NCBI GenBank assembly: GCA_947184155.2
Contig: CAMXCT020001082.1
Coordinates: forward strand, 1-64,000
DNA length: 64,000 nt
Reading direction: 5' to 3'
Source: Cladocopium goreaui
Taxonomy: Eukaryota; Sar; Dinophyceae; Suessiales; Symbiodiniaceae
Under the pieces are notes generated by a model. That model did not search any database. It had not been told where the DNA came from and saw nothing but the letters and a program-made list of their open reading frames with translations. Both the position numbers and the translations under genes were made by a program. Positions 2,262 through 63,031 of the stretch are shown here, piece by piece. The first letter of the stretch is position 1; each line of letters starts with the position of its first letter.

Positions 2262-3570
2262 GCGCCTTCCGCCACGCATCCACTGCGGGAAGTGAGCAAA
2301 AGACCTGCCACGGATTTCTGTGGGTTCCAACTCGCCTTGAATGGGGGTTGTAGCAGGGAACTGGGGTTACAACCGACCTAGATATAATGTGTATATATAT
2401 ATAATATTCGTATATATATATATAATATTCTATAATTATATGTATATATATATACATATAATATTATACACATTATCTTTGAATAATTGAGCTCCTGGAA
2501 GAGAACAGCATGTTCTCTCATCTCTCTGGATGTTCTCTATTTATATGCCAGTGGCCACCCAAGCCCAGCTACAAGCGCAGAGGCAGATAATTCTTTATCT
2601 TCACTGAGGCTCAAGGATCGCAAAGAAGGAAAATCAAACAAGGAATAACCTGTAATAATTATGTATTATAAAACCAACAATAATAGGGGTAATACGATAA
2701 TATGTATTATAACATGGTTCATTATTATATAAGTTTATTCATTGTAATAGAGATACCCAAAGATGTTCCATCTTAACAATCCATCCAATCTAACCATTAA
2801 GACATATTGGAAAAACGGCAAACACATCACATATAAAATGACATTAAATCACCAAGCAATCTCATAGAACATCAGTGAAAATCAGTGAAATTACATATAT
2901 CTATATCAGTGAGAATTATACATCAATACAAATCACTGAATCATAGAACATCACATCTAGCAGTTGCCGTTCTTACCTGCAATCACTGATGTTCCATGAT
3001 TAATCACTGAGTATGGGAGAACTATTGTCTATCTAGATTAGATTATATTTCTAACATAGATATGATATCTATCAATATCTATTAATCAATCACTGATGGT
3101 TTTTATTCGTAATTAAACCGTCAACAATAATCAATAATAATTAGCCATAAACCATTAATAAACCATAAATACTGTTATTATCAAACATAGAGGATCTATT
3201 ACCCGCTGGTAATTTAACATACATAGCTATAGAACATGGCACATAGAACTAGTTGATTTACCGAACTTAAAGATTGTGATTTTCCAGTTCGCAAACTGTT
3301 AGTTTACCAGAGGGCAACTACATGTTTGTTGGGTATATCCCATAAAATCCCATTAAATCACCAGTTCCCCTCATTAAATCAGCATTTTCAGCAGTTAAAT
3401 CAGAATTTTCAGCCGTTAAATCACCATTTTCAGCAGTTAAATCACACTTTTCCTTCATTAAATCACCATTGACCCATGGCGCCTGGTGCCCCCAGGGCCA
3501 CCAACTCCTCTGCCGCTACCAGGCCCAAACCGCCCAGACCACCGGTGACCAGCTGCAGCCCTTGCTTGAC
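2262..3570 (-). CDS. PKS ketoreductase B, start of NADPH-binding subdomain, 2 exons
   Basis: Exon 3483-3570 carries [19 protein letters not shown], the GGxGxxG dinucleotide-binding loop. It ends on a GC donor (CCAG|GCGCCA) in phase 1 and joins exon ~2262-2304, which gives GLLLTSRSG, the next conserved KR strand. The catalytic Lys, Ser and Tyr exons would lie further downstream and are not recognised inside this window; they probably lie beyond its left edge. The 3' end of the second exon is uncertain. Confidence 0.8.
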
Positions 3571-6500
3571 CTGGCTTTCGAAAGGGTGGAATCGTTTTAA
3601 AAATAACCATGGTTAGCTGAGTTAGCTGGTTGGTGGTATAGGTTGTAACTATGGCCAGTTAGTCTATAACTATGGTTAAAAGCTGCTGGGTGATAACTAT
3701 GGTTATTGCAATTCTCACCCAGGTGGATCTATTCAAGATCTACTCAAGATCGACCGAGTCATGGTATACCTACCCCTCTGAAAAATATGACTTCGTCAGT
3801 TGGGATGATGAAATTCCCAATATACGGAGAAATAAAAAATCTTCCAAACCACCAACCAGACAATGGTTAGTAACTGCCCTAAGTGGCTTTTCCTGTTCAT
3901 GACGCTGGGTTATAACTATGGTTAGCGCCTTCGAATCCCTGTAGTATTTCCCCAACCACTTGCTACGGTGCTGGCACGATTCAGCCAAATCTTTGCATAT
4001 CAGCCTCCTCCCATCAACGCCAGAAAGAGTGAGCGAGGCTGAATCTCCCCTTCAAAAGCTCTGTATAAATTTCTGATGAAAGATCCCTGTATCGCTGGTT
4101 CATCATTTCTCATCATTTTTCACGAAAAACAAATCAAAAAACAGCCTGAAACCTCCCATCCCGCCATATCCCGCCTGTGTTGCCATCTTCTCTGCATCTC
4201 TCATAGCATCCTGCCTCTGCAGCTGCAACGCCTCCTGTGGCGCCTCCACCACCCGCGGCACCCGACGTCCAGCGCTACCCGTGATAGCCTCCACGTCGTT
4301 GTCGGCGCCTTGAAGCTCCAGGGCCACGGCCTGAAGGCGAACAGATTCCTTCTGCTTCGGCTGGAAAAAATGGAGCGAATCTTGGGGATTTTCAGAGATT
4401 TTCGTGGATTTTGAACTTGTTTTTTTCCATGGACGGTTGGGATTGAAGGGAAAAACCCATGGATTTTGTGGCTGGATCTTAAGCCGTCTGCTTGTGGGCT
4501 GATGGGATGATGGCGATGAAATCTCCAGTCCATCCACTGCTTGATGGTGGTTTCTGGTGGGCCGTGTGACAAACCCATTTACCCTCTGGTAAACTAACAC
4601 AACTATGTAAAATCACCATTTTTAATGGGACAATTCACATAAATTCACTATAAATGGTGATTTTCCATGATTTTCCATAGTTATGTTAAATTACCAGAGG
4701 GTATATAGAGTGATTCTGACTTCTGCCAGTTTCTCAACACTAGTTTTCTGGAATCGATTTCAAGGGACTTAAAGTTGATGGTAACAAAATCCTACACGTA
4801 CCCTTGTGATTGCCGTCCAGCCCTTCACAACCCATCGTTCGCAAAGCCTTGGCCACGTCCTGATTGGTTGCCTTGGACTGAGCACATCATACAGCCCTAA
4901 CGTCAACAGCTGGATGAACAAACCCTGGTTGATTTTAAGAGGTGATAAGTTGCTACTAAAATGCTATCCCGCCAATGAAACATCCTAGGGGTTTAAGCCA
5001 GGGGTGGCATCTCAATGTATCAACATTTTGCCCATGAATTTCCCCTGAACAAACCGTCGTTTGGGGATCATCATGATCATCCTCGCAGTCTACGAAGACT
5101 CTTCTGGATCTAAACTTAGAAACATCGTCCAAAAAAACATCAGAAAACTCTAACTGAGCAGTGTTCAAAACCCTCATCCCTTCAGATTTCTAGGGGCTCT
5201 CACCCCTACTGTGGATGGAAGAAATCCTGCACCAGTTGATAGATGGTTTATCCCACTATTTATAGGGTTTCAACCATCCTTTTGGTGGTGCAGGATTTCT
5301 CCCAACAGTATCAGGGTTGTTGGATGGTTTTGGTCACTGAATCCAATCCTGGCGGCTTTGAGATCCACATCCAACGCCTTGATGACCAGCCGTGGCATCT
5401 CGATCCGCGCGGAGCGCAGCAGACCCCACAGCGCACAGGCGCCGTCGAAGGAGGCTCCGGCCTCGTGCGCGCCGCGCGTGACGACCAGCAGCAGCTTGGG
5501 ATCTTCGGCCGTGGCGGCAGCTTGCAGGAAGACCAGCAACTGTTCCAAGGCCTTCCATGGAGAAAGGTAGGGGGGGTAGGGGGATGTCATATGAACCATG
5601 AAAATCCATGGGATGGTATGACTGTGATATGATGTAAATTGATGTAATAGGATATGATGTAATTAAATGTAATTAATGACTCGAATCCTGATATTTGCAC
5701 AATACATATCACCGTTTTCAGTGATGAATCACCAAGAACCACTAGTGACACTAGTGAACCACCAACTGATAATGACACACATGGTTTTTCCATTTTCAAG
5801 AAGGATGAACAAAGGAGGAAGACAAACTGTGAATAAAAAGTTGCTTTCCCTGGTATAGTCCCCTCCTGGCTTTCCGTTCCACTCATTTTTTGTCACTGGG
5901 ATAGCCTCTTGGTGCACTCAACTTCTGACTCCATTGCCAAACAAGGAAAGAAAGGGCTGAACCTTGACTATTTAGGTATCTTTGCAACTCATGCTTAGCA
6001 TCATCTTCAAAACGTCAACTGTCCCAACGGCCAGGTCTGTTGCAAAACCACCGCTATGCCATGTAATGCCATGGACGTACACTTCTCAAGCAGGCTGTAC
6101 TCTACGATTTTCAACCAATCTAAAACTGCCTGCTGTACTACTGGGTCCCCAGTTTCTGGGATTTCTTTCCTATCAAACCAACGGTGCCAAACAGGAAATT
6201 TATACAGCATCGCGGGGAAAATATCTGAATCTCCCGCAAGAAAATCAAGAATCCACATTCAGCTAGAAGAAACTTGTAGTAATGGGAATAAGTATGTAGA
6301 ATAATCGGATATGAGTCGCGCATATTCAGCAGCAATCAGCCCCATCCACCCCCTTTTTCTTGACCGTCAACATCTCCACCGGACATGGCTCATCCCTTCC
6401 CAAGCCACCTTCATGGATGGCTCCCCACTGGGGGTTTCCGCGTCAGCACAGAAGATTGCTGCAGGGCGACCCTTCATGGCCTCATGAGTTGTGGATAGAA

Positions 6501-9500
6501 ACAACATGTGCTGCACTTGGATCTGCTTGGTGGTATACCTACCCCTCTGAAAAATATGAGTCAGTTGAGATGATGAAATTCCCAACTGAATGGAAAAAAA
6601 CCTGTTCCAAACCACCAACCAGGGATTCTTGCCAGCATCCATGGCGCCCAAAATGGAGATCTCTACATGTGGGACCAATATTTCAAACATCTTATCGAAG
6701 GAACAAACGTGTCAATGCTGCACTTTCTGAGTATTTTTACACATTTTACATAACACGAAGCTGGTTGGTGGTGCAATAACCATCTTGAATGGGGTTGGGA
6801 TGACATCCCATATATGAAATGGAAAAATAAACAATCTTCCAAACCACCAACCAGACAGTATTGTTTGAATTACCAGTTTTGGCCGAACATTCAAGGACAT
6901 CTATGATCTTACTGCCGTCACATTTGATAGGTGATACTCTGGGCAACAGGTGCCCCGCCGGTGTGAGAACCATGGAAACTGGCACCCAAAGAAGAGGTAC
7001 TCGGTCTGCTTCGCGTTTTGTCGTTTGCTTGGCGCTTTGAATCCATCACAGAGCTATTATAGTTACCAGCTATAATATAGTTGACTATAGCAACTATAAT
7101 AGCTCTAACGATATACCAACTATAACTATGCTATAGTCATTATAGTTGGAAGCTACATGGTCATCCCAAATAGCTATGGTATGCAAGTTGAAGCCACCCA
7201 GCAGGCCCAAGATCAGGACCGGCCTCAGCCATCTTGTTGGGCTCGGAAAGTTGCACGGCCACCTGGGTTGAAATGGGACGATCGCCACCACGGAGAGACA
7301 GTAGGATCTTCTGCAAACACATTAAGGCAAACAAGCACGGAAGGACACATTCATACACATGCATGTGTGCACACCATTGCACATCACTATGTAGATACGA
7401 ATATGAACAGCACAATTTGGAATATCAAACGTGCAATAAGCGGGTCGTGGGGGGTTCTTGGTGGGTACAACAGCGAATTCATGGGTGTATGTGTCCGCCG
7501 TCAATGCTTTTGTCCCAGTTTTTGAGGGGTCATCAGATGCATACCCCAAACAAGTATAAACATGTTGGCTATAACGCCTGGATCACTTGGTTTGTGAAGT
7601 GCTCAAAACACCAATATGAATATGTGTTCCTTGCTAGCCAGTTGCTTTCTGGTTAAGTCCCCAAATTTTAAGGGGTAGGTTGCATCATATTCCACTTTTG
7701 TTGGTGAATTCCACCACTATTGTTGGTATAATCTCCACGTTTGTTGCCCACATTCTCATTTGATATGCCGCAAAAACAAGCAATGCATGGAACCACAGGG
7801 TTGGCAATCTCGATAGACTGTCCAAACATCCCCCAACCCCCTGTGGCAAAAGCAAGAAATACATTGAAATACGCATTTTGCCTTGGTGAACTTGACTCTC
7901 CCATTTTTTGGATATTTTTGGGAACATTCCCCCCATTTTATGTTCCCAAATCCTCAGTTTTCTGCCCCCTTCCTTGTTGTTCCTCCAAGGCACTGCCTTC
8001 GGCAGCGCCTTCAGCAACTCATCGGACAGGCTCTGAGTGGCCAGCACGGCAGTTCCTTCCACCAGGCCGGAGGTCGGAACCACATCGGCAGGCAACCAAT
8101 CCTTGGCTGCACGCTTCAAGGTGGATGTCACATCCCAAACGGGCCTATCAGATCTACCCTCTGGTAATTTAACATAGCTATGGAAAATCACAATTTTTAA
8201 TGGGAAAATCCACTATAAATGGCCATATTCAATAGCTACGTTAAATTACCAGAGGGTATCAGATCTATCCGAAGAAACATGCTGGTGAACTGGGTTCATC
8301 ACATCTGGATGGAAACGGATCTGGAGGCTTGAACCAGTTTGAAACTGCCAATTTTTTCTATCTGTTACCCTCTGGTAAATTAACATAGACCCTGGCAGTC
8401 ATCGGGGTTGGAAGACTAGTTTCCATTAAAAATGGGTGATTTTCAGGGTCTATGTTAATTTACTGGAGGGTAAGTCATCAGGTACCCCACAGACGTCCCG
8501 TAATTCAGAGGTGCTGCCTGCCACCGCACTGTGCAACATGGTGGCAGTTTGTCTGCTGGGACATGGGGGTGTAAACACGTGGACAAAGAAGTAGCTGATT
8601 TGTTCAAGTCATGCCAATTCGTTCATATCAGTTTCACCAAATGCCAAAAACGACTTGTTTCCATGAGATCCAAAATTCATCTGCAGAACATATCAGAACA
8701 TGTTTTCAAATTGCAGATTCTGGAGCAGTCCAAGAGTCTTCCAAGTACAGAACTGTCTTCATCCATTCCCTCCATGGTTTCAACACCTGCCGGCGACCCG
8801 AGCCTTCCTTTCCGTGCTGATCCCAGTTCCAGTTCTGAAAAAGTTTGCAAAGACCAACCATCTTATCTGGGTAAATTATACTATTTCACTATATAACCTG
8901 AATGAAGGCCATAAAAGGGGATGATTTCCCTATAAAAGCCATGATTGCCATGTTGACAAACTCTCATTTTTTCATGACTCGGAGGGTATCTGCATCCTGC
9001 GGCTGGATCAGCCCGGGGAACGGGGCTAGCACTTTTTGATTATCCGAAAAGAGGAACAAAATGGAACAAATATTTTTCCTTTTCCAGGTTCGATTACCTA
9101 AGGGTAACCCAAATTTCAAGTGGTTAAAACCCAGGTTGCGAGTTACATCACGCTATAGTAACCCCAAAGTAGATCGAAAGGTCAAACTAGAGATATTACC
9201 AAATTCAGCATCTTTTTGGGGGGTTGGGGATGGGTTGACCAGCCCCGTGGCACCTTGCGCGCGAACTTCATGGGTGCCCTCTGGGGCGGTGTGGCGTTCG
9301 TCAGCGTGGCTTCCATCAAACCGTGGCCGTTGGTGCCAGAGAAACCGAAGGAGGACACCTAGGTGGAAGACAAACATCCAGGGCAGTTCAGGATTTTTGG
9401 CAATCTGTCTTTGATTCATTGATATTGTTTGAATTTGTTTGATATGTTTCAGAGTCTCAAGCACACAAGGAAAGCCATTATAGGGATAATTTTCTTCATC

Positions 9501-21500: not shown

Positions 21501-21812
21501 ATGTTGGGCTGCCCACAAGAGCCATAATTGGAGTTTGAGTGTATGACTAACACCTGGCTTGGTGCACATCCCATAAACTGCCCAGCAATGGTCATCATCG
21601 TTGAGCGCGGAGATGAGACATAGCATGACATAGCAAATCTGCCTGAAACTGCTTGAGCCCAGTTGCACTTAGCAAAATCTAATGCTCGATTCACAAAATC
21701 CAGTGTTTCTGGATTCTGTACTGATTCTCCCACCTATGTGATTCTGAGTCAACATGAGGTTACCATGGCTTACCCAACTACAAATTAACTCATTGATGTT
21801 GAAAAAGGGTAC

Positions 21813-21858
<46 letters not shown>

Positions 21859-28311: not shown

Positions 28312-28347
<36 letters not shown>

Positions 28348-28381
28348 TGTATGTATGTATGTATGTATGTATGTATGTATG

Positions 28382-28412
<31 letters not shown>

Positions 28413-55400: not shown

Positions 55401-58400
55401 GAATATCATATGTGTGTATACACAGATACATATATCATATGATTATATAATTATAATGTATATATGTAATTATATATATAATGGGATGTAGACCTGAGAA
55501 CACAACAGAAGATCAGGTGGAATATCAGGTACCCGAAAAATGGGAATGTCACTGATGTCACCACCAAAACTGGTAACTTAACCCAAGACCTGCGCACGCT
55601 TTGGTCTGGCTGGGGGGGATTGGGAACAGGGACCAGAGGGGGCAGCATACATTCAGAGGTACGCAGTTGCTTCAGGCTTCTCCCCCCTAGTGTACAAAAA
55701 ACAAACATGAAAATGCTGGTTGCAATGACAAGATCCTATACAAAATCACTTGCCGCTTGCCATGCATTTCCCTATTTTCCAGGTCCCAAACGCTCCATGC
55801 TGCAACAAGGGACCGAAGAACAGGCCGTGTCAACGATGTAGGATGGGCCCTTCAATCCCAGGGCATAGGAGATACGACCCGCGGAGACGGAGAAGGACAT
55901 GCCTACGAAACCGATCAGCACGTCTCAGGAAGATCAAAATGGTGGTATTTTAGGAACAGAAGGGGACACCCTGGGAGTGCGGTCTTTGACTGCATTCTGC
56001 AACCACTGCTCTCTTTAGTAAACCCCCATTTGCCACTCAAGGATGGATAATCTCGACCCAAACGCATACGTGAACGATTTTTTGAATGGCACCTGCTGCA
56101 TTCAAAGACAGATTCAACGATTAATAAGCCAGTCAATCAATTCCAACCAAGAACAACCTGTTGATAATTTGCGATCAACTTTATCATCTATCATCATTTA
56201 TCATGATGTATTATCAATGTCTTATCATTGATCACATCAACATCCAACAAACAATTTAGAGACTTCCCCAGCAGATCCCAGTCCCTGTCCCTGTCCCTGT
56301 CCGGACTCCGGACCTGTAGCGGTGTAGGGGCTGATCTTTTTGAAGTCCCAGGACTGCATCTGGATCCAATCGTTGTTGGCCAAGCCCACATGTACCGAGA
56401 CCTGCCGATGGGATGAGCCGTTGACATTCCGGAAATGGCACATCTTGGCGGAGCCACAATCAATCGGATCCACATCGGAAGGTCCGTTGATGTTGTGTTT
56501 GGGTAAAGGGAATCTGGCAATGAAGTGTATTGAAGTGTTGAATGTCTTATTTTGAAGGCTTCAGATTTTATGGATGACAACAGCGCGACAAACTTTTTCC
56601 TATGGAGGCGAGGACCATTGGCTGCGTGTCGGAAACCGAGCTGCAGGCGCTTCTGAGTACTGCTCTCTGATGGATTCAGAAGGATCATGAAACATCCATA
56701 GCTTCCCAAGCCGATCAAACATGAACCTGGATTTTGAAGGATCTAGCCATTTTCGGAAACGCCAGCAGTGCTATATCGGGCTCCGGCATATCATCTATTT
56801 CTGCGGATATTTGCAGACTGAACATGTGCCACAGAAATCTCGGCTATATAATTGGACATTCCGAATTTCACACACAATTTCACTCAGCATTTCAAAACAA
56901 ATTAGGAGCCTTGACCATTTGGCCTGTCTCCAGCTTCAACTGCATTGCAAACATTGGAATATGGGGATGGGTCAAAACCTTGTACCCCTGGTGAACATCA
57001 AAATAGCTGGTAAATGGATGTTCATCCCCTAAAAATGGTATTATATAATAGGTATTGATCCATACCCATAACATAGACCCGGGCAAGCCGGCGGCGGAAG
57101 TTTCCCAAACATAAATGACCTATAGTTCAAAGACAACCTGTCCCGACCGTGTCCTTCCCTCGACACTCCACACCTCACACTGCACACTGCACTCTTCGCA
57201 CTCCAAACTTCAAACTTCACACTCCACACTTCTCACTTCTCACTGCTTCTTCACACTCCAAACCTCACACTTCACACTTCACACTGCACACTTCACACTT
57301 CACAGTCCACACTTCACACTTCACACTTCACAGTCCACACTTCACACTTCACACTTCACAGTCCACACTTCTCACTTCGCACTTCACACTTCACACTTCA
57401 CACTCCACACTTCACACTTCTCACTTCTCACTGCTCCCTTCACACTCCAAACTTCACACTTCACACTTCTCACTTCGCACTTCACACTCCACACTTCACA
57501 GTCCACACTTCACACTTCTCACTTCACACTTCTCACTTCTCACTGCTTCCTTCACACTCCAAACTTCACACTTCTCACTTTGCACTTCACACTCCACACT
57601 TCACAGTCCACACTTCACACTTCTCACTTCTCACTGCTTCCTTCCCACTCCAAACTTCACACTCCAAACTTCACACTTCACACTGAACTTCACACTTCTC
57701 ACTTCGCACTTCACACTCCACACTTCACTCACACTTCACACTTCACAGTCCACACTTCACACTTCTCACTGCTTCCTTCACACTCCAAACCTCACACTTC
57801 ACACTTCACACTTCACACTGCGCTCTTCGCACTCCACACTTCACAGTCCACACTTCACACTTCTCACTTCACACTTCTCACTTCTCACTGCTTCCTTCAC
57901 ACTCCAAACTTCACAATCACACACTTCACACTTCACACTCACTTCTCACTGCTTCCTTCCCACTCCAAACTTCACACTCCAAACTTCACACTTCACACTC
58001 ACTTCGCACTTCACACTCCACACTTCACTCACACTTCACACTTCACACTTCTCACTTCCTCACTGCTTCCTTTCACACTCCAAACCTCACACTTCACACA
58101 CTCCAAACCTCACACTTCACACTTCACACTGCGCTCTTCGCACTCCAAACTTAAACTTCACACTCCACACTTCACACTTCACTTCCCACTGCTTCCTTCA
58201 CACTGCACACTTCACACTGCACTCTTCACGCCCCACACTTCACACTGCTCTAAACCTACGTGCAACAAAAAAACACTAGCGCCAAAATGGAGAAAATCTG
58301 CTAACAAATCCATTTCGCAGCCTTCATGCAGCCAGTCCAAGACGATGTACGAGATCCAGCTGCAAAAGACATTACGCATGCAGCCAAAGCAAGAAGCAAC

Positions 58401-61400
58401 CTTGACGCAGCCATTCCAATGCGATCTGCGGAGACTGAGTTGCAAAACACAAGAGAACTACGCGCAATGGCATCGGAAATTGTAGCTCAAAAACCGGATC
58501 TCGACGCCTGAGCGAAAAAAAGACGATTTTGAAGCACTTTTTAAAAGGATTTTTAGAAGGAAAATCACTAGCGCCAAAGTGGAGAAAATCTGCTGACAAA
58601 TCACTGTCGCAGCCTTCATGCAGCCACTCCAATACGATTTACGAAGTCCAGCTGCAAAAGACACTAGTATTACGCATGCAGCCACAGCATGAAGCAACCT
58701 TGACGCAGCCATTACAATGCGATCTGCGGAGACTGAGTTGCAAAACACAATAGAACTACGCGCAACGGCGTCGGAAATTGTAGCTCCAAAACCGGATCTC
58801 GACGCCAGAGCGAAAAAAAGACGATTTTGAAGCACTTTTTAAAAGGATTTTTAGAAGGAAAATCACTGGCGCCAAAATGAAGAAAATCTGCTGACAAATC
58901 ACTGTGGCAGCCTTCATGCAGCCACTCCAATACGATTTACGAGATCCAGCTGCAAAAGTCAATAGTATTACCAATGCAGCCACAGCACGAAGCAACCTTG
59001 ACGCAGCCATTACAATGCGATCTGCAGAGACTGAGTTGCAAAACACAATAGAACTACGCGCAACTGGGTCGGAAATTGCAGCTACAAAACCGGATCTCGA
59101 CGCCAAAGCGAAAAAAAAGACGATTTTGAAGCACTTTTTAAAAGGATTTTTTAAAGGAAAATTACTAGCGCCAAAATGGAGAAAATCTGCTGACAAATCA
59201 CTGTCGCAGCCTTCATGCAGCCACTCCAATACGATTTACGAAGTCCAGCTGCAAAAGACAATAGTATTACCAATGCAGCCACAGCACGAAGCAACCTTGA
59301 CGCAACCATTTACACTGCGGGAACGATCCTACAGTTGCAAAGCACCATGGAATTCCATCGGCAACTCATCCACCAGCAACACTTGCAATCCCATTTACAG
59401 TGAGGGAACGATCCTAGAGTTGCAAATCACAATGGAATTCCATCGGCAACTCATCCACCAGCACCACTTGCAATCCCATTTACATTGCGGGAACGATCCT
59501 ACAGTTGCAAATCACAATGGAGTTCTGTCGACCGCAAATGCACGAAACACAGGTGACACCCCATTTACAATGCGGAACCGATCCGAGACCGATCCGACCA
59601 TGATCCGAGCATGATCCGACCACACACGAGACCGTCTCGCACCCGTCGCACCGCAGAGGTATAGATCATCGACGTTCGGGGACGCACTTTGTCCGGAAAA
59701 AACATACGGTTTCGTGCATCTGCTATCTCTCAAAAACGCATTTCGTGCGAGACTTCCTTCAAAACTCCATCGGCAACTCCTCCACCAGCACCACTTGCAA
59801 TCCCATTTACAGTGAGGGAACGATCCTAGAGATGCAAATCACAATGGAATTCCATCGGCAACTCATCCACCAGCACCACTTGCAATCCCATCTACATTGC
59901 GGGAACGATCCTACAGTTGCAAATCACAATGGAATTCCATCGGCAACTCATCCACCAGCACCACTTGCAATCCCATTTACATTGCGGGAACGATCCTACA
60001 GTTGCAAATCACAATGGAATTCTGTCGACCGCAAATGCACGAAACGCAGGTGACACCCCATTTACAATGCGGAACCGATCCGACCATGGTCCGAGACCGA
60101 TCCGACCATGATCCGACCATGATCCGACCACAGTCTCGCACCCGTCGCACCGCAGAGGTAGATCATCGACGTTCGGGGACGCACTTTGTCCGGAAAAACA
60201 TAGGGTTTCGTGCATCTGCTATCTCTCAAAAACGCATTTCGTGCGAGACTTCCTTCAAAACTACATCGGCAACTCATCCACCAGCACCACGTGCAATCCC
60301 ATTTACATTGCGGGAACAATTTCTTTGACTAACTCGTTCCCTAACGAACTCTTTCTTTGCTCTTTCTTTGACTAACTCTTTCTTTGCTAACTCTTTCTTT
60401 GACTACCTCATATTTCCTGACTAACTCTTTCTTTGACTAACTCTTTCCCTCACTAACTCTTTCTTTGACTAACTCTTTCCCTCACTAACTATTTCTTTGA
60501 CTAACTCTTTCCCTCACTAACTCTTTCTTTGACTAACTCTTTCCCTGACTAACTGTTTCTTTGACGAACTCTTTCTTTGACTAACTCTTTCCCTGACTAA
60601 CTGTTTCTTTGACGAACTCTTTCTTTGACTAACTCTTTCCCTGACTAACTGTTTCTTTGCTAACTCTTTCTTTGACTAACTCTTTCCCTGACTAACTCTT
60701 TCTTTGACAAACTCTTCTTTGACTAACTCTTTCTTTGACTAACTCTTTCCCTGACGAACTCTTTCTTTGCTACCTCTTTCTTTGACTAACTCTTTCCCTG
60801 ACATTCTAAAAGTCCGTAACACGGAAGTTTCTCCACCTAAACTTCCTTTGATCATGGAATATCTACAAATCACAGGGAGCGGCGTTGCAATCCTTCGGAA
60901 GGCGAATCTTAGGGAATGGCGTTGCAATCCTGGATATGGAGGGCTGCTTTGATCTCCTGCGTTGCCTTCTGAGCATCGAGGAGGGTGGGGAGTGGCTGAT
61001 CAGTTGCACTGGCTGCATCTTCTTGGTCATTCCAATCACATCCACTCCATCCATGGCCCCCAATCTCACAGTACTCATTCCATTCACCATACTCATTCCA
61101 TTCACCATACTCATTCCATGCGCCAGACTCATTCTGTTCACCATGCTCTTCTGATTCATCCGGCGAATGGCCTTTGTGCTCCCACTCTTGCCATTGTCCT
61201 TCTTCTTGGTGCTGGTACTGGTCACAGCCATTCCAACTGTCATATCCTCCGATTTCACAGTACTCATCCCATTCCCATTCTTCATACTCTTCTTCGCGTT
61301 CTTCCTCAATCTCAGCATTGAACCAAGCACACTCATCGCAGGCATGGCACCCGCAAGCGCAAATGTACTGGAGGACACAAGCAGCCTTGACCTCTTGGCA

Positions 61401-63031
61401 AACGCTGCAATGCCACATATTCTCGCTCTTTTTGATGGTCATAGTCTGTCCACATTCGCACGTAGGGAGATCATCATCGTCACCGCTGACCGACATGTCT
61501 CGATTTTTGATGGGAGAGCAACTGGGCACGAGAGAAGAATTGGACCACAGGCTACAAGAATCCTTCCGTCGCGCTGTCGGAGACGTGAGATGATGTCTCA
61601 TATATGAGCTACAATGCGCCAAACATATCAAAACATACTCAGATACTCTTTCTCTCTTTTTGATGCTGACTTTCAGCACCTACGGTTCTGAATTTCATCG
61701 CTCCGTCCCCTCCTGGCCTCCTTTCCCATGACCGAGGACTTCTCTAATCCTGCATCCAGCAAACCTGGGCCGAAGTTGCTGGAAAACCCAGTTGCAAAGC
61801 CCCAAAAAATTGGGGGAGACTTGGAATGAAAAAGCCTGGCAAATAGCTTAGGTAAATACTTGAAGGTAAATTACACAACATTGAACATGGTAAAAAACAA
61901 ATGTAAAAACCATGTAAAAGTTGCTGCCGATTTTCGTGAGGGGCATCACTATGCGTTAGCCAGATTCGCCTGTGACATCATGCAGGGGAGCTGCAATGAT
62001 CCAATTACCAAAAAATCAAAACGCATCAAACCTCCTTGAAATCCCTGAGAGCTGTTCATGCCCCCATTAAATTCACATTATAAATCTTATTGAAATCCAA
62101 ACTCAAATCTTTGACGAGGAACTGTTCATGGAACACTCGAGCAGCAGCCGTTGCTGTGGATCCATCGCGCGTGCCTGGCAGCAAGGGTATGGTTTCTCTT
62201 TCAACCTCTGAGACATTGATCAGAAAAGGCTGGATCCATCTGATATTTTTTCATTTTTTTCCAGCATTTCAACAAAGAAAAGGTCAGGAGAGGTTGGACC
62301 AAGATGAACTTATGCTGGTCAATCCCAAACTATTGGATTTTACTAAAGTGGGAATTTCAGCATCCAAAAACGGAGGTACTGTACTGTATAAGGCCATATT
62401 CTGTGGGGATATTCCCTTACATAGGCCTTATATATACTTATATATATATATATAGTATATACTAGGTACCTCCAAATTTGGTTCCTGAAATGGCCATTGA
62501 TTTCTAGGATGGCAGGGTTCAGGGTCAAAAAACAGTAGGAAGCCAGGAAGCATCATGGCGCCTCTGGGGGTGAGATGCCAAAGAATTTGGCATCGAAGCA
62601 CTCCACAGCCTCGATGAAGGCGCCATGGCGAGGATACCTTGGTCCCAACCATATGGAATTGTCCTGCAAAACCCATGGTTTCGAAGAGGGTGTTGAAAAT
62701 ATTAGGGGGATAGGATTATATATATAATTATAATTATAATTAATTATATATAACGAAGAAATGGGAATAGGAAAGTGAAATAAAAGGAATCTTTCATGAA
62801 TTTTAAAATCTTGGCACAACTGTGGGGCACTTGAAACAATCCAACAGCTGATGATCTTGATCTTGCCGCATTAACAATGGATTGATGCGTCCAGAGACCA
62901 CCTTTTTTTCGATGAGGTCCCCAGCAAGGTTGCATTCCAAGCGACATCTTGCCCTGGGCGTCTGGGTTTGGATCCCAAACCTCTTCCAGTTCCCAGCGCG
63001 TGAAGGGAACCTCCACTTGGCCATCCACTCC
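2262..63031 (-). CDS. Giant multi-exon modular polyketide synthase gene (partial at both ends)
   Basis: One minus-strand gene explains most coding signal in the window. Its exons, 24-208 bp each and about 70 in number, spell PKS domains in the colinear order KS-DH-KR-ACP-KS-KR. Adjacent exons join in phase across introns of about 0.15-5.3 kb, and motifs split by introns become complete when joined (for example the KS HGTGT motif across 13500/12744). Such enzymes extend and reduce an acyl chain held on a carrier protein by decarboxylative condensation of malonyl units. No acyltransferase sequence lies between KS and DH or between KS and KR, so loading is inferred to be in trans. Neither an initiator codon nor a terminator is visible. 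An upstream exon may lie near 63870-63960 and downstream KR exons lie beyond position 1. Two separate genes would be an alternative, but the ACP-linker-KS_B continuity argues for one. The polyketide product cannot be predicted. Identification as modular PKS is very secure; individual exon ends are less so. Confidence 0.93.
3200..3315. repeat. TACCCTCTGGTAA inverted-repeat element, copy 1 (degenerate)
   Basis: Starts ACCCGCTGGTAATTTAACAT and ends GTTAGTTTACCAGAGGG, with the palindromic AACATGG core in between. It is the most diverged copy seen. It lies in the KR_B intron between exons 2304 and 3483. Confidence 0.7.
3711..3762 (+). repeat. 52 bp dispersed repeat, copy 1
   Basis: CAATTCTCACCCAGGTGGAT followed by two rounds of CTACTCAAGAT and GACCGAGTC. 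It is repeated almost exactly at 41052-41103, 37 kb away. Confidence 0.75.
3764..3864. repeat. GGTATACC/CCACCAACCAG short element, copy 1
   Basis: Begins ATGGTATACCTACCCCTCTG and ends AAACCACCAACCAGACA. Shares long stretches with copies at 6529 and (ends only) 6759. Confidence 0.6.
4244..8101 (-). CDS. PKS ketoreductase B, structural subdomain, 5 exons
   Basis: Follows KS_B directly. Exons: 7997-8101 ([20 protein letters not shown], 35 codons, in phase with KS_B), 7224-7262 ([13 protein letters not shown], end uncertain), 6409-6480 ([15 protein letters not shown]), 5357-5551 ([19 protein letters not shown], then [20 protein letters not shown]), 4244-4330 ([15 protein letters not shown], then GRRVPRVVE). 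VTRGA, ALWGL-RSARIE-P and GRRVPRVV are hallmark strands of the inert KR half, in the expected order. Only about 70 residues lie between the KS C-terminus and this fold, so no dehydratase or acyltransferase fits. Donors at 7997, 5357 and 4244 are GC. Confidence 0.84.
4580..4703. repeat. TACCCTCTGGTAA inverted-repeat element, copy 2
   Basis: Full element with both termini. The interior holds the family's ATTTTTAATGGG and its complement-like arm ATGGTGATTTTCCAT. It lies in the intron between PKS exons 4330 and 5357. Confidence 0.9.
6529..6627. repeat. GGTATACC/CCACCAACCAG short element, copy 2
   Basis: Shares GGTATACCTACCCCTCTGAA and TTCCAAACCACCAACCAG with the copy at 3764. It lies in the KR_B intron next to exon 6480. 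Confidence 0.6.
6759..6858. repeat. CTGGTTGGTGG...CCACCAACCAG short element, copy 3
   Basis: Has true terminal inverted repeats, AGCTGGTTGGTGGTGC and AAACCACCAACCAGACAG, about 75 bp apart, with AATCTTCC inside the right arm as in the other copies. Confidence 0.6.
7048..7107. repeat. AGAGCTATTATAGTT inverted repeat
   Basis: A near-perfect palindrome: AGAGCTATTATAGTT at the left and AACTATAATAGCTCT at the right around a short AT-rich centre. It lies in the KR_B intron below exon 7224. No function visible. Confidence 0.7.
8155..8258. repeat. TACCCTCTGGTAA inverted-repeat element, copy 3
   Basis: 104 bp with complete ends, 54 bp upstream (in PKS sense) of exon 7997-8101. A second, related copy follows 107 bp away. 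Confidence 0.92.
8366..8472. repeat. TACCCTCTGGTAA element, copy 4 (subfamily with CCTGGCAGTCATCGG core)
   Basis: Same ends, but the interior reads AACATAGACCCTGGCAGTC on one side and TCAGGGTCTATGTTAA on the other. This core is shared with copies at 22856 and 37115, defining a second subfamily. Confidence 0.9.
9254..20821 (-). CDS. PKS ketosynthase domain B (KS_B), 15 exons
   Basis: Condensing enzyme of the second module. Exons: 20749-20821 ([20 protein letters not shown]), 19691-19783 ([20 protein letters not shown]), 19509-19532 (24 bp, tentative), 18874-18920 ([15 protein letters not shown]), 18327-18391 ([10 protein letters not shown]), 18003-18076 ([12 protein letters not shown]), 17583-17694 ([20 protein letters not shown]), 16660-16714 ([13 protein letters not shown]), 15817-15963 ([16 protein letters not shown]), 13500-13653 ([21 protein letters not shown]), 12688-12744 ([12 protein letters not shown]), 12173-12235 ([12 protein letters not shown]), 10437-10486 ([17 protein letters not shown]), 10099-10192 ([16 protein letters not shown]), 9254-9358 ([17 protein letters not shown]). 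Cys, His and His of the active site are intact. From 18920 to 9254 every junction is in phase, with exon lengths matching to the base. GC donors follow 18874, 18327, 17583 and 13500. Confidence 0.94.
11326..11408. repeat. AATACAGTATA short tandem repeat
   Basis: Units of AATACAGTATA (11-12 bp) repeated about six times, in the 1.7 kb KS_B intron 10487-12172. The same intron holds an AGCAGCAGCAA run at 11551-11600 and a TTTTTCCAGGCGCACGGCC segment occurring twice (11673 and 11745). Nothing coding is seen in it. Confidence 0.85.
14880..15300. repeat. CATACCATAC minisatellite
   Basis: Degenerate 8-12 bp units of ACATACCATACCTACC over about 420 bp. Its open frames on both strands (rich in His-Thr-Ile or Met-Val-Cys) are repeat by-products. 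Confidence 0.9.
15301..15640. repeat. 102 bp tandem array with G8-A-G5 tracts
   Basis: Three copies start at CAGGGGGGGG positions 15321, 15423 and 15525, an exact 102 bp period. Each has two G-tract boxes, a GACAGTGCC spacer and an AGATCTCATATGGGACCAGT segment. A longer G tract follows at about 15620-15645. It could form G-quadruplexes on the plus strand (non-template for the minus-strand PKS transcript this would be C-rich RNA). Confidence 0.93.
19838..19906. repeat. CAATGGATTGGTTTAAGGG inverted-repeat family, copy 3 (left end lost)
   Basis: Starts AGGAAACCATAGATTTTCC and ends CTTAAACCAATCCATTG. Only the inner left arm remains. It lies next to KS_B exon 19691-19783. Confidence 0.65.
21140..21243. 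repeat. TACCCTCTGGTAA inverted-repeat element, copy 5
   Basis: 104 bp with complete ends and the standard ATTTTCAATGGG interior. It lies in the linker region between the ACP_A and KS_B exons. Confidence 0.92.
21811..21985. repeat. TATATATTACATA microsatellite
   Basis: Some 14-17 bp units of TATATATATTACATA repeated about ten times, in the linker region between ACP_A and KS_B. Confidence 0.92.
22700..22778 (-). CDS. PKS exon: ACP-to-KS_B inter-module linker (3' end uncertain)
   Basis: After the acceptor CTCAG|GTCGG, a reading frame in phase with the ACP_A exon gives [15 protein letters not shown] and then a Gly/Ala/Met-rich stretch, consistent with an unstructured inter-module linker. Where it ends is not clear because several donors are possible. 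A further linker exon may lie near 22040-22120, where the minus strand is GC-rich and open, but I could not fix its frame. The KS N-terminal strand expected between here and 20821 was not found. Confidence 0.5.
22856..22969. repeat. TACCCTCTGGTAA element, copy 6 (CCTGGCAG-type subfamily)
   Basis: The left end is mutated (TACCCGTTGGCAAATTAAC) and the right end intact. A short duplication (GTTAATATATGTTAAT) sits inside the right arm. It lies 78 bp from PKS exon 22778. Confidence 0.85.
23057..26575 (-). CDS. PKS acyl carrier protein domain A (ACP_A), 4 exons
   Basis: Carries the growing chain on a phosphopantetheine arm. Exons: 26497-26575 ([14 protein letters not shown], helix 1), 25798-25852 ([17 protein letters not shown]), 25239-25305 ([14 protein letters not shown]), 23057-23120 ([17 protein letters not shown]). 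The attachment Ser lies in GLDSL, whose Gly codon is completed across the intron at 25798/25305. The FDYPT motif of helix 3 is intact. The intron between 26497 and 25852 is flanked on both sides by CAGGATG and fits as GA-AG; the next two introns start GT and GC. A single complete ACP is seen, with no tandem copy. Confidence 0.93.
23448..23725. repeat. AT-rich microsatellite
   Basis: About 280 bp of TA dinucleotide runs broken by ACTATACATA-like units, in the ACP_A intron next to the fold-back. Confidence 0.9.
23885..24440. repeat. ~0.55 kb imperfect fold-back rich in A and T runs
   Basis: Left-arm pieces recur inverted in the right arm: GAATGTTTGGTTTTGACTCA (23974) against GGGTCAAAACCAAGCATTC (24348), and TTGAATGGATATGATCA (24089) against TGATCATATCCATTCAA (24236). 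The whole is dominated by CAAAAAC and GTTTTTTG runs. It lies in the 1.9 kb... ACP_A intron between exons 25239 and 23120. It resembles a large non-autonomous inverted-repeat element with no coding capacity. Confidence 0.7.
25046..25151. repeat. TACCCTCTGGTAA inverted-repeat element, copy 7
   Basis: In inverted orientation relative to copy 8. It lies in the ACP_A intron, 88 bp from exon 25239. Right end CCAGAGGATA with one substitution. Confidence 0.9.
25329..25432. repeat. TACCCTCTGGTAA inverted-repeat element, copy 8
   Basis: 104 bp with complete ends, only 23 bp upstream of the ACP_A exon that carries the phosphopantetheine Ser (25239-25305). Copies 7 and 8 flank that exon. Confidence 0.93.
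26178..26275. repeat. AAGTTGGTTTATAA inverted repeat
   Basis: Arms AAGTTGGTTTATAA and TTATAAACCAACTTAG with internal direct repeats of AACCATAGTTA. It lies between ACP_A exons 25852 and 26497, a probable small fold-back element. Confidence 0.65.
27096..28994 (-). CDS. PKS exons: KR-to-ACP linker
   Basis: Three in-phase exons. 28920-28994 carries [16 protein letters not shown], the helix that normally closes a PKS KR. 27879-27934 carries [16 protein letters not shown], a typical post-KR helix. 27096-27166 carries [10 protein letters not shown] followed by an Ala/Lys-rich stretch, a flexible linker leading into the carrier protein. The phase between 28920 and 27934 only works if the intron starts GA (C|GACCC). 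The last exon ends on a GC donor and joins 26575 in phase. Confidence 0.75.
28030..28540. repeat. TATA then (TATG)n microsatellite
   Basis: AT dinucleotide run turning into more than 50 copies of the 4 bp unit TGTA/TATG. Open frames on both strands here (Tyr-Val-Cys-Met type or His-Thr-Tyr-Ile type) are products of the repeat. It lies in the intron between linker exons 27934 and 28920. Confidence 0.95.
29701..38070 (-). CDS. PKS ketoreductase A, catalytic NADPH-binding subdomain, 9 exons
   Basis: Reduces the beta-keto group with NADPH. Exons: 38006-38070 ([20 protein letters not shown]), 37401-37449 ([14 protein letters not shown]), 36607-36715 ([11 protein letters not shown]), 35968-36020 ([13 protein letters not shown]), 32412-32447 ([10 protein letters not shown]), 32011-32067 ([19 protein letters not shown]), 30981-31037 ([17 protein letters not shown]), 30512-30563 ([16 protein letters not shown]), 29701-29835 ([15 protein letters not shown], then [12 protein letters not shown]). 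The coenzyme loop GGTGALG is present. The catalytic Lys (CSAK), Ser (FSSV) and Tyr-xxx-Asn (YCAAN) are all intact, so the domain should be active. The GTLSDG loop keeps the second Asp of the LDD position seen in B-type KRs, which gives only a hint about alcohol stereochemistry. Introns after 32412 and 30981 fit best as GA-AG. The 3.5 kb intron between 35968 and 32447 encloses the ankyrin gene. Confidence 0.93.
32502..32605. repeat. TACCCTCTGGTAA inverted-repeat element, copy 9
   Basis: 104 bp with complete ends. It lies in the intron that also contains the ankyrin gene, 55 bp from KR_A exon 32447. Confidence 0.93.
33029..34135 (-). CDS. Ubiquitin-like/ankyrin-repeat protein, intronless, nested in a PKS intron
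   Basis: Open frame of 368 codons with no intron. Residues 1-72 resemble a ubiquitin-like beta-grasp: MLRIISAG start, helix [18 protein letters not shown] turn and QLVLLPL last strand. From residue ~80 to 358 there are about seven ankyrin repeats, recognisable by [95 protein letters not shown] and [11 protein letters not shown]. The C-terminus is basic ([11 protein letters not shown]). Ankyrin arrays bind other proteins; no enzymatic motif is present, so the function is unknown. It lies inside the 3.5 kb intron between PKS exons 35968 and 32447, on the same strand. The intact frame and the contrast with the finely split PKS gene suggest a separately expressed gene, perhaps of retroposed origin (inference). 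Confidence 0.9.
   Translation of the reverse strand: MLRIISAGTGETLAEFPAEFYFDKSVKMLKQCLAERTGVSRFRQRFIGSDHRVCSDEDFVEPGSVQLVLLPLSYDGKLGKELRMACLANNLMEVERLLSLPLYPDQRNRVGETALHAAARFGHLECVKLLLEAGADTRAKENSLENASRNQATSIPPLARAAKYGHLEVVRVLLAAKGDPASGLKALDEAVGHGQVEVARLLLEAGVPTGADQSSTPLMKAAELGHAQLVQVLLGFGADRDQITGGKAAIHAAAACGWLEVVRILLQAGTSANTLSDVTRETPLHFAAGNGYLEVVQLLLTFRAQTDLRSIGNVQQSRLFLNRSREIFTAACHTPLELAEVRGYAAVARTLVEAGAQRGNSKRKQREY
34612..34680. repeat. (TATC)n microsatellite
   Basis: About 15 copies of CTATCTATATCTATC-type units, upstream of the ankyrin gene in its host intron. Confidence 0.92.
35757..35769 (+). other. 13 bp match to the 5' part of the dinoflagellate spliced leader
   Basis: ACCGTAGCCATTT matches the first 13 bases of the dinoflagellate spliced-leader consensus (DCCGTAGCCATTTTGGCTCAAG); the match stops at the next base (GAGCC). 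There is no SL RNA gene here, since the rest of the leader and its donor are absent. It is on the plus strand, opposite to all genes found, so if meaningful it would be a relic. Confidence 0.35.
35806..35906 (-). repeat. GTACCCCTGGTGAACATCAAA element, copy 1 (inverted)
   Basis: Contains TATTTTGATGTTCACCAGGG and ATCAATACCTATCCATACC, the reverse complement of the copies at 50921 and 56955. It lies next to KR_A exon 35968. Confidence 0.75.
37115..37221. repeat. TACCCTCTGGTAA element, copy 10 (CCTGGCAG-type subfamily)
   Basis: Near twin of copy 4 (8366), including the GGGGTTGGAAGA core and TCAGGGTCTATGTTAATTT arm. It lies in the intron between KR_A exons 36715 and 37401. Confidence 0.9.
37784..37899. 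repeat. TACCCTCTGGTAA inverted-repeat element, copy 11
   Basis: Complete ends. The left arm holds a small internal duplication of AATTTAACATA. It lies in the intron between KR_A exons 37449 and 38006. Confidence 0.9.
38503..38609. repeat. TACCCTCTGGTAA inverted-repeat element, copy 12
   Basis: Left end intact, right end mutated (ACATAACCAGGGGGTA). It lies in the intron between KR_A exons 38070 and 38915. Confidence 0.88.
38915..43421 (-). CDS. PKS ketoreductase A, structural (N-terminal) subdomain, 8 exons
   Basis: The catalytically inert half-Rossmann that precedes the active KR fold in modular PKSs. Exons: 43244-43421 ([12 protein letters not shown] and later [11 protein letters not shown]), 42750-42846 ([18 protein letters not shown]), 41707-41767 ([16 protein letters not shown]), 41208-41261 ([11 protein letters not shown]), 40592-40708 ([23 protein letters not shown]), 40038-40105 ([18 protein letters not shown]), 39646-39740 ([16 protein letters not shown]), 38915-39015 (LWMPRLVD). 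The order follows family expectation: strand WLVL, then SLAGL, then [14 protein letters not shown], the EHPEL-FDL strand, and the PRLV strand. Donors mix GC (43244, 42750, 41208, 40592) and GT. The far end of 43244-43421 is the least certain. Confidence 0.85.
39529..39629. repeat. CAATGGATTGGTTTAAGGG inverted-repeat family, copy 2
   Basis: Both ends are present: CAATGGATTGGTTTCAGGG at the left and AAACCAATCCATT at the right, with ATTTACAGGAACACC and CCTGTAGATTTAAAC as inner arms. It lies 17 bp from KR_A exon 39646. Confidence 0.75.
40197..40300. repeat. AGATTAAGACTAAG / AGATAGATAG repeats
   Basis: GATTAGATTAAGACTAAGACTAAG passing into AAAAGAAAAG and ATAGATAGATAG, about 100 bp, in the KR_A intron above exon 40105. 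Confidence 0.85.
41052..41103 (+). repeat. 52 bp dispersed repeat, copy 2
   Basis: Matches 3711-3762 with about two substitutions. It lies in the KR_A intron upstream of exon 41208 on the plus-strand map. Confidence 0.75.
41843..41995. repeat. TAATGGGATAT short tandem repeat
   Basis: ATTAATGGGATATT units with inserted TTATGGTTAT, ending exactly at inverted-repeat element copy 13. It lies in the KR_A intron next to exon 41767. Confidence 0.85.
41996..42112. repeat. TACCCTCTGGTTGTGACTAAC element, copy 13 (variant)
   Basis: A variant whose ends read TACCCTCTGGTTGTGACTAA and TTAGTCATAACCAGATGGTA, so both arms carry the same change and the stem is preserved. It follows directly on a short TAATGGGATAT repeat array (41843-41995). 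Confidence 0.85.
43684..48304 (-). CDS. PKS dehydratase domain A (DH_A), 10 exons
   Basis: A double-hot-dog dehydratase that removes water from the beta-hydroxyacyl chain made by the ketoreductase. Exons: 48274-48304 (GFRFLRAK, tentative), 47345-47507, 46386-46490 ([11 protein letters not shown]), 45927-45997 ([15 protein letters not shown]), 45485-45603 ([17 protein letters not shown]), 44958-45062 ([17 protein letters not shown]), 44710-44774 (LGRLKLDDG), 44382-44493, 44033-44098 ([14 protein letters not shown]), 43684-43821 ([16 protein letters not shown]). The first hot dog carries [10 protein letters not shown], which fits the catalytic HxxxGxxxxP, followed by VFVEMALEA. The second carries [11 protein letters not shown], with Asp in the DxxxH form of the usual DxxxQ/H. 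Both catalytic residues are therefore present and the domain is predicted active. All ten exons join in phase; introns after 47345, 46386, 44710 and 44033 use GC donors. The boundary of the first small exon is the weakest point. Confidence 0.88.
45106..45221. repeat. TACCCTCTGGTAA element, copy 14 (truncated left end)
   Basis: Begins CCTCTCGTAAACTAAC and ends GAATTGCCAGAGGGTA. It lies 44 bp from DH_A exon 45062. Confidence 0.82.
46950..47068. repeat. TACCCTCTGGTAA inverted-repeat element, copy 15
   Basis: Complete ends with a small internal duplication (GGTAAATCC twice). It lies in the DH_A intron between exons 46490 and 47345. Confidence 0.9.
49105..49224 (-). CDS. PKS exon: post-ketosynthase linker
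   Basis: A 120 bp exon of exactly 40 codons that starts [17 protein letters not shown] and ends with the FPWRE motif typical of the short linker after a KS domain. The acceptor is CTGTCAG|GCGG and the donor GAG|GTGAGG. It is in phase with the KS_A C-terminal exon upstream and with the dehydratase exons downstream. Only these 40 codons plus a ten-codon exon separate KS_A from the dehydratase, which leaves no room for an acyltransferase domain of about 300 residues. This is the main evidence that the module is AT-less. Confidence 0.8.
49460..63031 (-). CDS. PKS ketosynthase domain A (KS_A), 14 exons
   Basis: KS_A condenses the growing chain with a malonyl extender. Exons in transcription order: 62946-63031 ([18 protein letters not shown]), 62562-62637 ([14 protein letters not shown]), 62135-62174 ([10 protein letters not shown]), 61733-61764, 56314-56401 (GLANNDW), 55814-55902, 55216-55313 ([17 protein letters not shown]), 54210-54417 ([13 protein letters not shown]), 53715-53810 ([10 protein letters not shown]), 52531-52592 ([14 protein letters not shown]), 51551-51609 (KSNCGHLEG), 50719-50782 ([13 protein letters not shown]), 50106-50217 ([13 protein letters not shown]), 49460-49549 ([12 protein letters not shown]). 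The catalytic triad is complete: Cys in DTACSS, His in CHGTGT and His in KSNCGHLEG. Nearly all junctions keep phase; the intron after 54210 starts GA. Between GDPIE and the KSN motif it is about eight residues shorter than KS_B, so a tiny exon may be missed between 51610 and 52530. The intron between 61733 and 56401 is 5.3 kb and holds satellites and another reading frame. Confidence 0.93.
50921..51030 (+). repeat. GTACCCCTGGTGAACATCAAA element, copy 2
   Basis: Reads TCAAAACCTTGTACCCCTGG, then TAGCTGGTAAATGGATGTTC and GGTATTGATCCATACCCAT. It is almost identical to the copy at 56955. It lies in a KS_A intron. Confidence 0.8.
53525..53627. repeat. CAATGGATTGGTTTAAGGG inverted-repeat family, copy 1
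   Basis: Arms CAATGGATTGGTTTAAGGG, then AAAATCTACAGGAAACC, a short loop, and GGTTTTCCTGTAAATTTTCC. The fold is a near-perfect hairpin. It is in the KS_A intron next to exon 53715. Confidence 0.75.
56955..57070 (+). repeat. GTACCCCTGGTGAACATCAAA element, copy 3
   Basis: Near-identical to 50921-51030 over about 100 bp. It lies at the edge of the satellite block in the 5.3 kb KS_A intron. Confidence 0.8.
57139..58255. repeat. CACACTTCA/CTCACTTCT satellite
   Basis: About 1.1 kb of 8-10 bp units such as CACACTTCACACTTCTCAC, with higher-order blocks spaced by CTGCTTCCTTCACACTCCAA. The plus strand is open in two frames throughout because the unit lacks stop codons, not because it is a gene. Confidence 0.95.
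58270..59300. repeat. ~298 bp tandem repeat, about 3.4 copies
   Basis: The marker GCGCCAAAATGGAGAAAATC recurs at about 58279, 58571, 58869 and 59168 (period 292-299). Units also share GCAGCCTTCATGCAGCC, GATCTGCGGAGACTGAGTTG and GAAGCACTTTTTAAAAGGAT. Copies differ by a few percent. Open frames in it change between copies, so no protein is called. Confidence 0.93.
59300..60325. repeat. ~88 bp repeat in a ~500 bp higher-order satellite
   Basis: Units contain GCGGGAACGATCCTACAGTT, GGAATTCCATCGGCAACTC and CACCAGCACCACTTGCAATC. A longer segment with ATCATCGACGTTCGGGGACG and GCATTTCGTGCGAGACTTCC occurs at about 59528-59765 and 60029-60261, giving a ~500 bp higher-order period. It also contains runs of GATCCGACCAT. 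Confidence 0.93.
60325..60800. repeat. CTAACTCTTTCTTTGA minisatellite
   Basis: Units CTAACTCTTTCTTTGA and CTAACTCTTTCCCTGA alternate over about 470 bp with variants CTAACTGTTTC and CGAACTC. It abuts the 3' side of the cysteine-rich reading frame. Confidence 0.95.
60909..61679 (-). CDS. Cysteine-rich zinc-binding-like protein with acidic repeat tail, nested in a PKS intron
   Basis: Open frame of 256 codons. The best start may be Met62 (61494-61496), which opens [11 protein letters not shown]. Right after it come paired cysteines at 74/76, 91/94, 107/109 and 111/114/117 (motifs [21 protein letters not shown]), a pattern suited to binding two zinc ions in a ribbon- or RING-like fold. Residues ~120-235 are very acidic and aromatic, with repeats of YGEWNE and a twice-used YCEIGG. 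No known family is recognised. It lies between KS_A exons 61733 and 56401 on the same strand, only 53 bp from exon 61733. If the longer start were used, its leader would run almost to the splice donor. The ordered Cys pairs make it more than chance; function is unknown. Confidence 0.65.
   Translation of the reverse strand: MLKVSIKKRERVSEYVLICLAHCSSYMRHHLTSPTARRKDSCSLWSNSSLVPSCSPIKNRDMSVSGDDDDLPTCECGQTMTIKKSENMWHCSVCQEVKAACVLQYICACGCHACDECAWFNAEIEEEREEEYEEWEWDEYCEIGGYDSWNGCDQYQHQEEGQWQEWEHKGHSPDESEEHGEQNESGAWNEYGEWNEYGEWNEYCEIGGHGWSGCDWNDQEDAASATDQPLPTLLDAQKATQEIKAALHIQDCNAIP

Follow-up and report, generated by a model that had tools for sequence, protein, structure and literature searches.

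A 64-kb window of dinoflagellate-type DNA very probably holds module 5 and most of module 6 of a seven-module polyketide synthase line encoded by one very long gene

The window, by which we mean the whole 64,000-nt stretch of DNA analysed here (C1082:1-64000), carries on its minus strand, by spliced alignment, KS_A, DH_A, a psi-KR half, KR_A, ACP_A, KS_B, a second psi-KR half and the start of KR_B (Table 1). A preliminary description had proposed the order KS-DH-KR-ACP-KS-KR on one strand, and both spliced alignment and Pfam recover it on the minus strand. The parent contig, C1082 (181,310 bp), was covered in full; the assembly comprises 1.166 Gb in 6202 contigs. Because the exons are short, we used a purpose-written spliced protein-to-DNA alignment, which accepts GT, GC and GA donors and AG acceptors, penalises stops heavily, disallows frameshifts, and also penalises GA donors and any base other than G after AG. 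Templates were bacterial proteins at first and then relatives from three protein searches (the best 120 of thousands of matches in each); 350 relatives' proteins, designated here by P-numbers, were collected from the matches listed.

The window model comprises 79 predicted, non-overlapping exons of 20 nt or more, running from 63938 to 1753, with a median exon length of 70 nt and a median intron length of 526 nt. The preliminary description had counted ~70 tiny exons; their small size stands and their number rises. All exon counts given here are model counts, and short exons and linker exons are uncertain. The outer ends proposed earlier are consistent with the model: 63031 corresponds to exon 63031-62946, and 2262 to exon 2304-2266. 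Beyond these the model adds exons 63938-63879 and 1804-1753. Donors are GC (40), GT (27) or GA (12), and 76 of the 79 acceptors are followed by G, an enrichment that is partly built in because the alignment penalises GA donors and non-G after AG. The difference in G+C content between exons (59.6%) and the rest of the window (42.5%) is independent of these penalties. This difference, together with the interruption of the exons by introns, rules out bacterial contamination of the window. By contrast, C1, a bacterial-looking contig in this algal assembly, has long intronless PKS frames with AT domains at ~5.97-6.07 Mb and elsewhere, the frames reaching 16,369 aa.

Table 1. Modelled features of the polyketide synthase line on C1082 and C334. 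Window positions are in nucleotides; other positions are in kb unless given in full.
Feature	Contig	Position	Strand	Basis and motifs
KR (end of module 3)	C1082	138.4-132.6 kb	-	spliced alignment
ACP (end of module 3)	C1082	125.0-123.7 kb	-	spliced alignment
KS_0 (module 4)	C1082	123.4-115.1 kb	-	spliced alignment; catalytic motifs present
DH_0 (module 4)	C1082	114.8-106.5 kb	-	spliced alignment
psi-KR (module 4)	C1082	97-92 kb	-	spliced alignment
ER (module 4)	C1082	91.2-84.4 kb	-	spliced alignment
KR (module 4)	C1082	83.5-71.2 kb	-	spliced alignment
Two ACPs (module 4)	C1082	69.8-65.8 kb	-	spliced alignment
KS_A, ketosynthase of module 5	C1082 (window)	49466..63938	-	15 exons; spliced alignment
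Linker and DH_A, dehydratase	C1082 (window)	43702..49224	-	Pfam, alignment; active-site motifs including DGTIH
psi-KR half of module 5	C1082 (window)	40079..43421	-	alignment to P0234
KR_A, ketoreductase	C1082 (window)	27870..39684	-	GGTGALG and NYCAAN motifs; middle exons uncertain
ACP_A, carrier domain	C1082 (window)	22740..26541	-	GLDSL motif; PF00550 1.3e-12
KS_B, ketosynthase of module 6	C1082 (window)	9254..22127	-	active-site motifs; alignment
Linker and psi-KR half of module 6	C1082 (window)	4175..8786	-	alignment to P0129, P0020, P0240
KR_B start	C1082 (window)	1753..3570	-	GGLGGLG; remainder from C334:121706 onward
Stretch common to C1082 and C334	C1082 (window) and C334	window 1..15665 = C334 105672-121353	reversed	sequence identity
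KS_C	C334	138.7-150.7 kb		spliced alignment
AT (module 7)	C334	150.9-162.3 kb		GHSVG, HAFH
DH (module 7)	C334	176.8-183.7 kb; psi-KR next		
ER (module 7)	C334	192.9-199.1 kb		
KR (module 7)	C334	199.7-204.6 kb		
ACP (module 7)	C334	206.8-208.5 kb		
TE (module 7)	C334	209.7-217.3 kb		GHSFG, VPGTHF

Pfam analysis of the spliced pieces, leaving aside linkers that fit badly and the uncertain middle of KR_A, recovered the KS, DH, KR and ACP families. The matches were PF00109 (2.4e-64 and 9.4e-58) with PF02801 for the KSs, PF21089 (1e-10) and PF14765 (7.5e-10) for the DH, and PF08659 for the KRs (7.8e-35, and 3.8e-07 for the second KR, which runs into the contig end). The four window segments gave spliced-alignment scores of 3034.8, 993.4, 1636.2 and 500.9 half-bits, as compared with 102.0, 100.6, 80.7 and 62.0, in the same order, for the best of seven controls (the other strand, reversed sequence, four column-shuffled profiles and another stretch of the contig), which rules out chance motif matches. 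The active sites, described earlier as intact, have their motifs in KS, DH, ACP and KR_A; those of KS_A are DTACSS (Cys), ECHGTGT (His) and KSNCGHLE (Lys/His). The printed translations of the window model contain zero stops, a property of the model, since the method penalises stops heavily and permits no frameshift. Identity to relatives is 71.5% from KS_A to psi-KR (P0234, 1008 columns) and 90% in KS_B (P0240, 393 columns), and the last window exon of KR_B, GQKRLQDQLKRLQLLPGL, is identical in Breviolum P0122. The weakest stretch in identity is KR_A-ACP_A (46% to P0233, 53% to P0245), and the least certain is the middle of KR_A (~37.4-32.4 kb), where two templates picked partly different exons. 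Allowing up to 3 mismatches, no copy of the spliced leader was found in the window.

The introns of the window have contents of their own. Within a KR_A intron, on the same strand, lies an intronless 368-aa ankyrin-repeat frame (33029-34135, minus strand; PF12796, 1.1e-39), which is possibly a retrogene, and the intron after the last KR_B exon contains an intronless 244-aa RING-finger frame (899-1633, minus strand; PF13639, 5.1e-13). A 5.3-kb intron of KS_A is full of dense tandem repeats (57163-60796), with units of 7, 298, 85 and 16 bp.

Upstream of the window on C1082, the same strand carries a KR-ACP pair and then a fully reducing KS-DH-ER-KR-ACP-ACP module. Distant templates fit DH_0 poorly (187.9); closer ones scored 562.0, and DH_0 to ER scored 2306.4. 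A KS for the first KR, that of module 3, was not found in C1082 138-181 kb (156.4 vs 107.5 for the decoy), and the C1082 minus strand has no KS motif above 137 kb. At the corresponding place, Durusdinium trenchii P0233 has a KS and Effrenium P0238 has the end of one. A separate contig, C2130, has a module-2-type KS on its minus strand at 42192-35360 (nine matches of 64-88% identity, two with an internal stop); its covered part, 1-9 kb, shows no clear PKS exon (1-9000). At 177.4-180.5 kb on the minus strand of C1082, upstream of the gene, are the protein pieces WLLDSGASA and YVDD, which we take to resemble a copia-type retroelement.

With Breviolum P0122 as the query, a search of the assembly led to C334 (267,003 bp; covered at 1-10, 92-95 and 100-225 kb, with N at 95-100 kb). 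Aligned over 15,697 columns, its overlap with C1082 shows 99.64% identity, 9 mismatches and 10 gap openings. Past the overlap, C334 carries the rest of KR_B, ACP_B and then KS-AT-DH-psiKR-ER-KR-ACP-TE, and its KR_B-KS_C part is 88.9% identical to P0122. Colinearity of the two contigs ends at a 102-bp unit repeated three times (window 15310-15616). To the left of 105672, the arm of C334 loses its colinearity with C1082, which implies either a joining error in one contig or a real difference there. We trusted C1082 at this break, as a matter of judgement, because KS_B is whole both on C1082 and in relatives.

Combining the two contigs gives the order KR-ACP / KS-DH-psiKR-ER-KR-ACP-ACP / KS-DH-psiKR-KR-ACP / KS-psiKR-KR-ACP / KS-AT-DH-psiKR-ER-KR-ACP-TE. 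The modelled gene runs from C1082:138362 to C334:217331, that is ~234 kb, and has 20,020 coding nt. It comprises 279 exons of 20 nt or more, of which 79 lie in the window, 88 farther upstream on C1082 and 112 on C334 beyond the overlap. Its donors are GC (126), GT (102), GA (47) and others (4), with G after AG in 271 of the 279. KS, ACP and reducing domains therein are arranged in repeated modules, as in type I modular PKSs, with their covalent linkage inferred from relatives' proteins. Hence, the window very probably represents module 5 and the larger part of module 6 within a single, very long Symbiodiniaceae-type, type I modular PKS gene, belonging to a line of seven modules that is already known. 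The preliminary description of a two-module synthase fits the part that was seen, and the line has further modules on both sides. The proposal that a dinoflagellate-type, multi-module gene runs off both edges of the window is borne out by upstream C1082, by C334 and by relatives' proteins.

The known line is TB92contig3790 of Gambierdiscus polynesiensis, a transcript of 31,688 nt whose seven modules run FR / DH-KR / KR / FR with two ACPs / DH-KR / KR / FR with AT and TE, with an AT in module 7 only; its modules 1-3 repeat the organization of modules 4-6 (PMC7159223). Our line shares with it the module order, the tandem ACP of module 4, the ER inside the KR, the AT in module 7 only and the terminal TE. 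The likeness is drawn from domain layout, and contig3790 is a transcript, whereas we describe a gene of ~234 kb in another family. Furthermore, contig3790 has modules 1-3 whole, whereas the gene as modelled here begins on C1082 at the KR of module 3. On C1082 and C334 the seven-module order is represented from the last part of module 3 through module 7, with the module 3 KS not found and the module-2-type KS on C2130 not linked. None of the named database matches listed was recognised as contig3790. The predicted product of the seven-module PKS is part of a ladder-polyether backbone. This PKS was termed absent from other dinoflagellates, with incomplete assemblies left as a possible cause, and a neighbouring pair of B. 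minutum gene models was noted to match its domain order (PMC7159223). The literature titles and abstracts listed contained no report of the full line outside Gambierdiscus, subscription papers being mostly beyond reach. Giant modular PKS genes are likewise described from another eukaryote, the haptophyte Prymnesium parvum, whose PKZILLA genes encode 56 modules in two proteins (PMC12300183); we liken them by description. Further background is given in PMC9500876 and PMC4661987.

Are the modules parts of one gene? It is unlikely that they belong to two or three distinct genes lying side by side, with proteins that dock into a line. Such an arrangement is suggested by the Breviolum minutum models 008781/008782 and 015788-015790, which have the same domain orders in pieces and were published as separate, split gene models (PMC4647583), by the differing lengths of the fragments that make up the database relatives, and by blot bands below full size for the Amphidinium Triple KS (PMC10455422). 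P0122 is B. minutum 015788, and P0244 is 008781, whose match lies outside the window modules: it aligns at 87.5%, over 1541 residues of D. trenchii P0233, to modules 1-2 of that protein. However, relatives' proteins cross the junctions at differing places. Among the matches listed, overlapping proteins of Durusdinium, Effrenium, Symbiodinium, Breviolum, Prorocentrum and others bridge them: P0238 (Effrenium voratum) spans KR-ACP-KS_0-DH_0-ER_0-KR_0, P0121 (S. necroappetens, 79%) ACP-KS_0, P0234 (label s190_g20.t2) DH_0 to the psi-KR of module 5, P0245 (Prorocentrum cordatum) KR_A-ACP_A-KS_B-KR_B-ACP-KS_C-AT-DH, P0240 (S. microadriaticum; 74.7% over 700 columns in KS_B-KR_B) KS_B to the ER of module 7, and P0268 (D. 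trenchii; 78.3-88.8% identity) ACP_B to the start of the TE. The ACP/KS_B linker, named earlier as a possible break, is bridged in the single proteins P0245, P0005 (Symbiodinium microadriaticum) and P0008 (Durusdinium trenchii), and the end of ACP_A at this linker is also present in P0235. The last of these, of 3411 aa, extends to the TE and takes up 10,233 nt of an intronless 10,364-bp contig; judging from these lengths, its source sequence looks like cDNA, which also argues against separate genes, as does the single 31,688-nt transcript of G. polynesiensis (PMC7159223).

Somewhat less likely again is a three-module Triple KS gene whose first KS would be KS_A, the modules upstream of it being part of a different gene. 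The layout of Triple KS in Amphidinium carterae (PMC10455422) and Karenia contig10709 (PMC7159223) matches modules 5-7, with three KSs and a last module of DH-ER-KR-TE, as we find for KS_A, KS_B and KS_C with the TE. D. trenchii P0008 and P0241, on one 679,580-bp contig, look like a second, shorter copy that ends in a TE, has no AT family match and lies beside the long line, and this copy would be consistent with a Triple KS gene. Nonetheless, the protein does not appear to start at KS_A: P0234 runs from DH_0 through ER, KR and the ACPs into KS_A and DH_A, P0021 runs from ER to DH_A, both through ER-KR-ACP-ACP into KS_A, and the G. polynesiensis transcript has seven modules (PMC7159223). Thus, as compared with Triple KS, the line here has extra modules fused upstream, and an AT is present; a Triple KS AT is reported in Akashiwo and missing in Amphidinium (PMC10455422). 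Among the 350 proteins, the Triple KS KR2 epitope was best matched by relatives of KR_B (10/14 residues in P0020 and P0256, 9/14 in P0251 and P0235), and window KR_B matches 6/14, counted by eye. The KS1 and TE epitopes had no clear match among these proteins (best 8/13 and 7/14).

We consider it very improbable that the window gene is a decayed copy. Several KR_A exons fit poorly and the KS of module 3 was not found, as might be expected of a pseudogene, and identity to the best template falls to 46% over KR_A-ACP_A. On the other hand, catalytic motifs are present in KS_A, KS_B, KS_C, KS_0, the ER, the AT, the ACPs and the TE, and in the DHs of modules 5 and 7, and identity to relatives is 71-89% over long stretches. 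A single long modular gene remains our preferred reading. PKS pieces elsewhere in the assembly, at ~308-342 kb on the plus strand of C3279 (open frames of 833 and 447 aa; KS 65% identical to P0122), have far fewer introns than the window gene.

The KSs also bear on how the line arose. In a tree of 62 KS domains (four of our own models and 44 proteins chosen from the 350, with pieces of fewer than 250 model positions dropped), KS_B groups with module-3-type KSs (100/100), KS_A with module-2-type KSs (91/88, below star level), and KS_0 and KS_C with a module-1-type KS (91/94, below star level). Among the tree sequences, the nearest named relatives are from Durusdinium, Breviolum, Symbiodinium and Effrenium. 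KS type thus appears to track module type, as would be expected under a block duplication of three modules; Van Dolah and others had seen part of this pattern. The published tree, unlike ours, unites the KSs of ER modules with those of DH-KR modules (PMC7159223).

How might the line work? One mRNA would give one polypeptide, and the chain would be handed from each ACP to the next KS, with colinear use of the modules. Extension would be by malonyl units, as suggested by the malonyl-type HAFH motif of the AT. Full reduction by module 4 would give a saturated unit, module 5 would leave an alkene and module 6 a hydroxyl, and module 7 would again reduce fully to a saturated unit before the TE releases the chain. 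The synthase was initially described as an AT-less, trans-acyltransferase assembly line. The window modules do lack an AT, but the line does not, since its last module, on C334, has an AT (score 1230, GHSVG and HAFH); AT-profile scores in eight tiles of C1082 are 62.3-90.5, as compared with 43.6-95.6 for reversed decoys. A trans-AT PKS has no AT integrated in its line; here, modules 4-6 lack one and module 7 has one. Malonyl for the AT-less modules could come from the module 7 AT, from discrete AT proteins, or from both. That the line is trans-AT in practice, with discrete ATs loading the AT-less modules and the module 7 AT serving its own module only, is in our view about evenly balanced, and concerns mechanism rather than gene structure. 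Candidate AT-like frames on contigs C5912, C2360, C2103, C1128 and C1436 are consistent with it, as is the ratio of discrete trans-ATs to cis-ATs, 26 vs 4, in three Symbiodiniaceae genomes (PMC6361889), whereas the presence of an intact-looking AT within the same line argues against it. A bolder reading, which we hold less likely than not, is that this line, first seen in a ciguatoxin producer, is an old, widely kept dinoflagellate gene with a core function that arose by a three-module duplication, and that its one AT loads all of the AT-less modules, a system between cis-AT and trans-AT.

With the line itself already known from Gambierdiscus polynesiensis, what is new is its genomic structure and its occurrence outside that genus. 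The same order in a Symbiodiniaceae-type genome, that of a coral-symbiont kind of alga, and matching pieces in several other genera, make a role specific to ciguatoxin less likely. The structure also shows in part why the PKS genes of dinoflagellates look short: the ~20 kb that code for protein are spread over 279 modelled exons, ~234 kb and two contigs, and relatives' gene models break at differing places. The locus is now testable in culturable symbionts.
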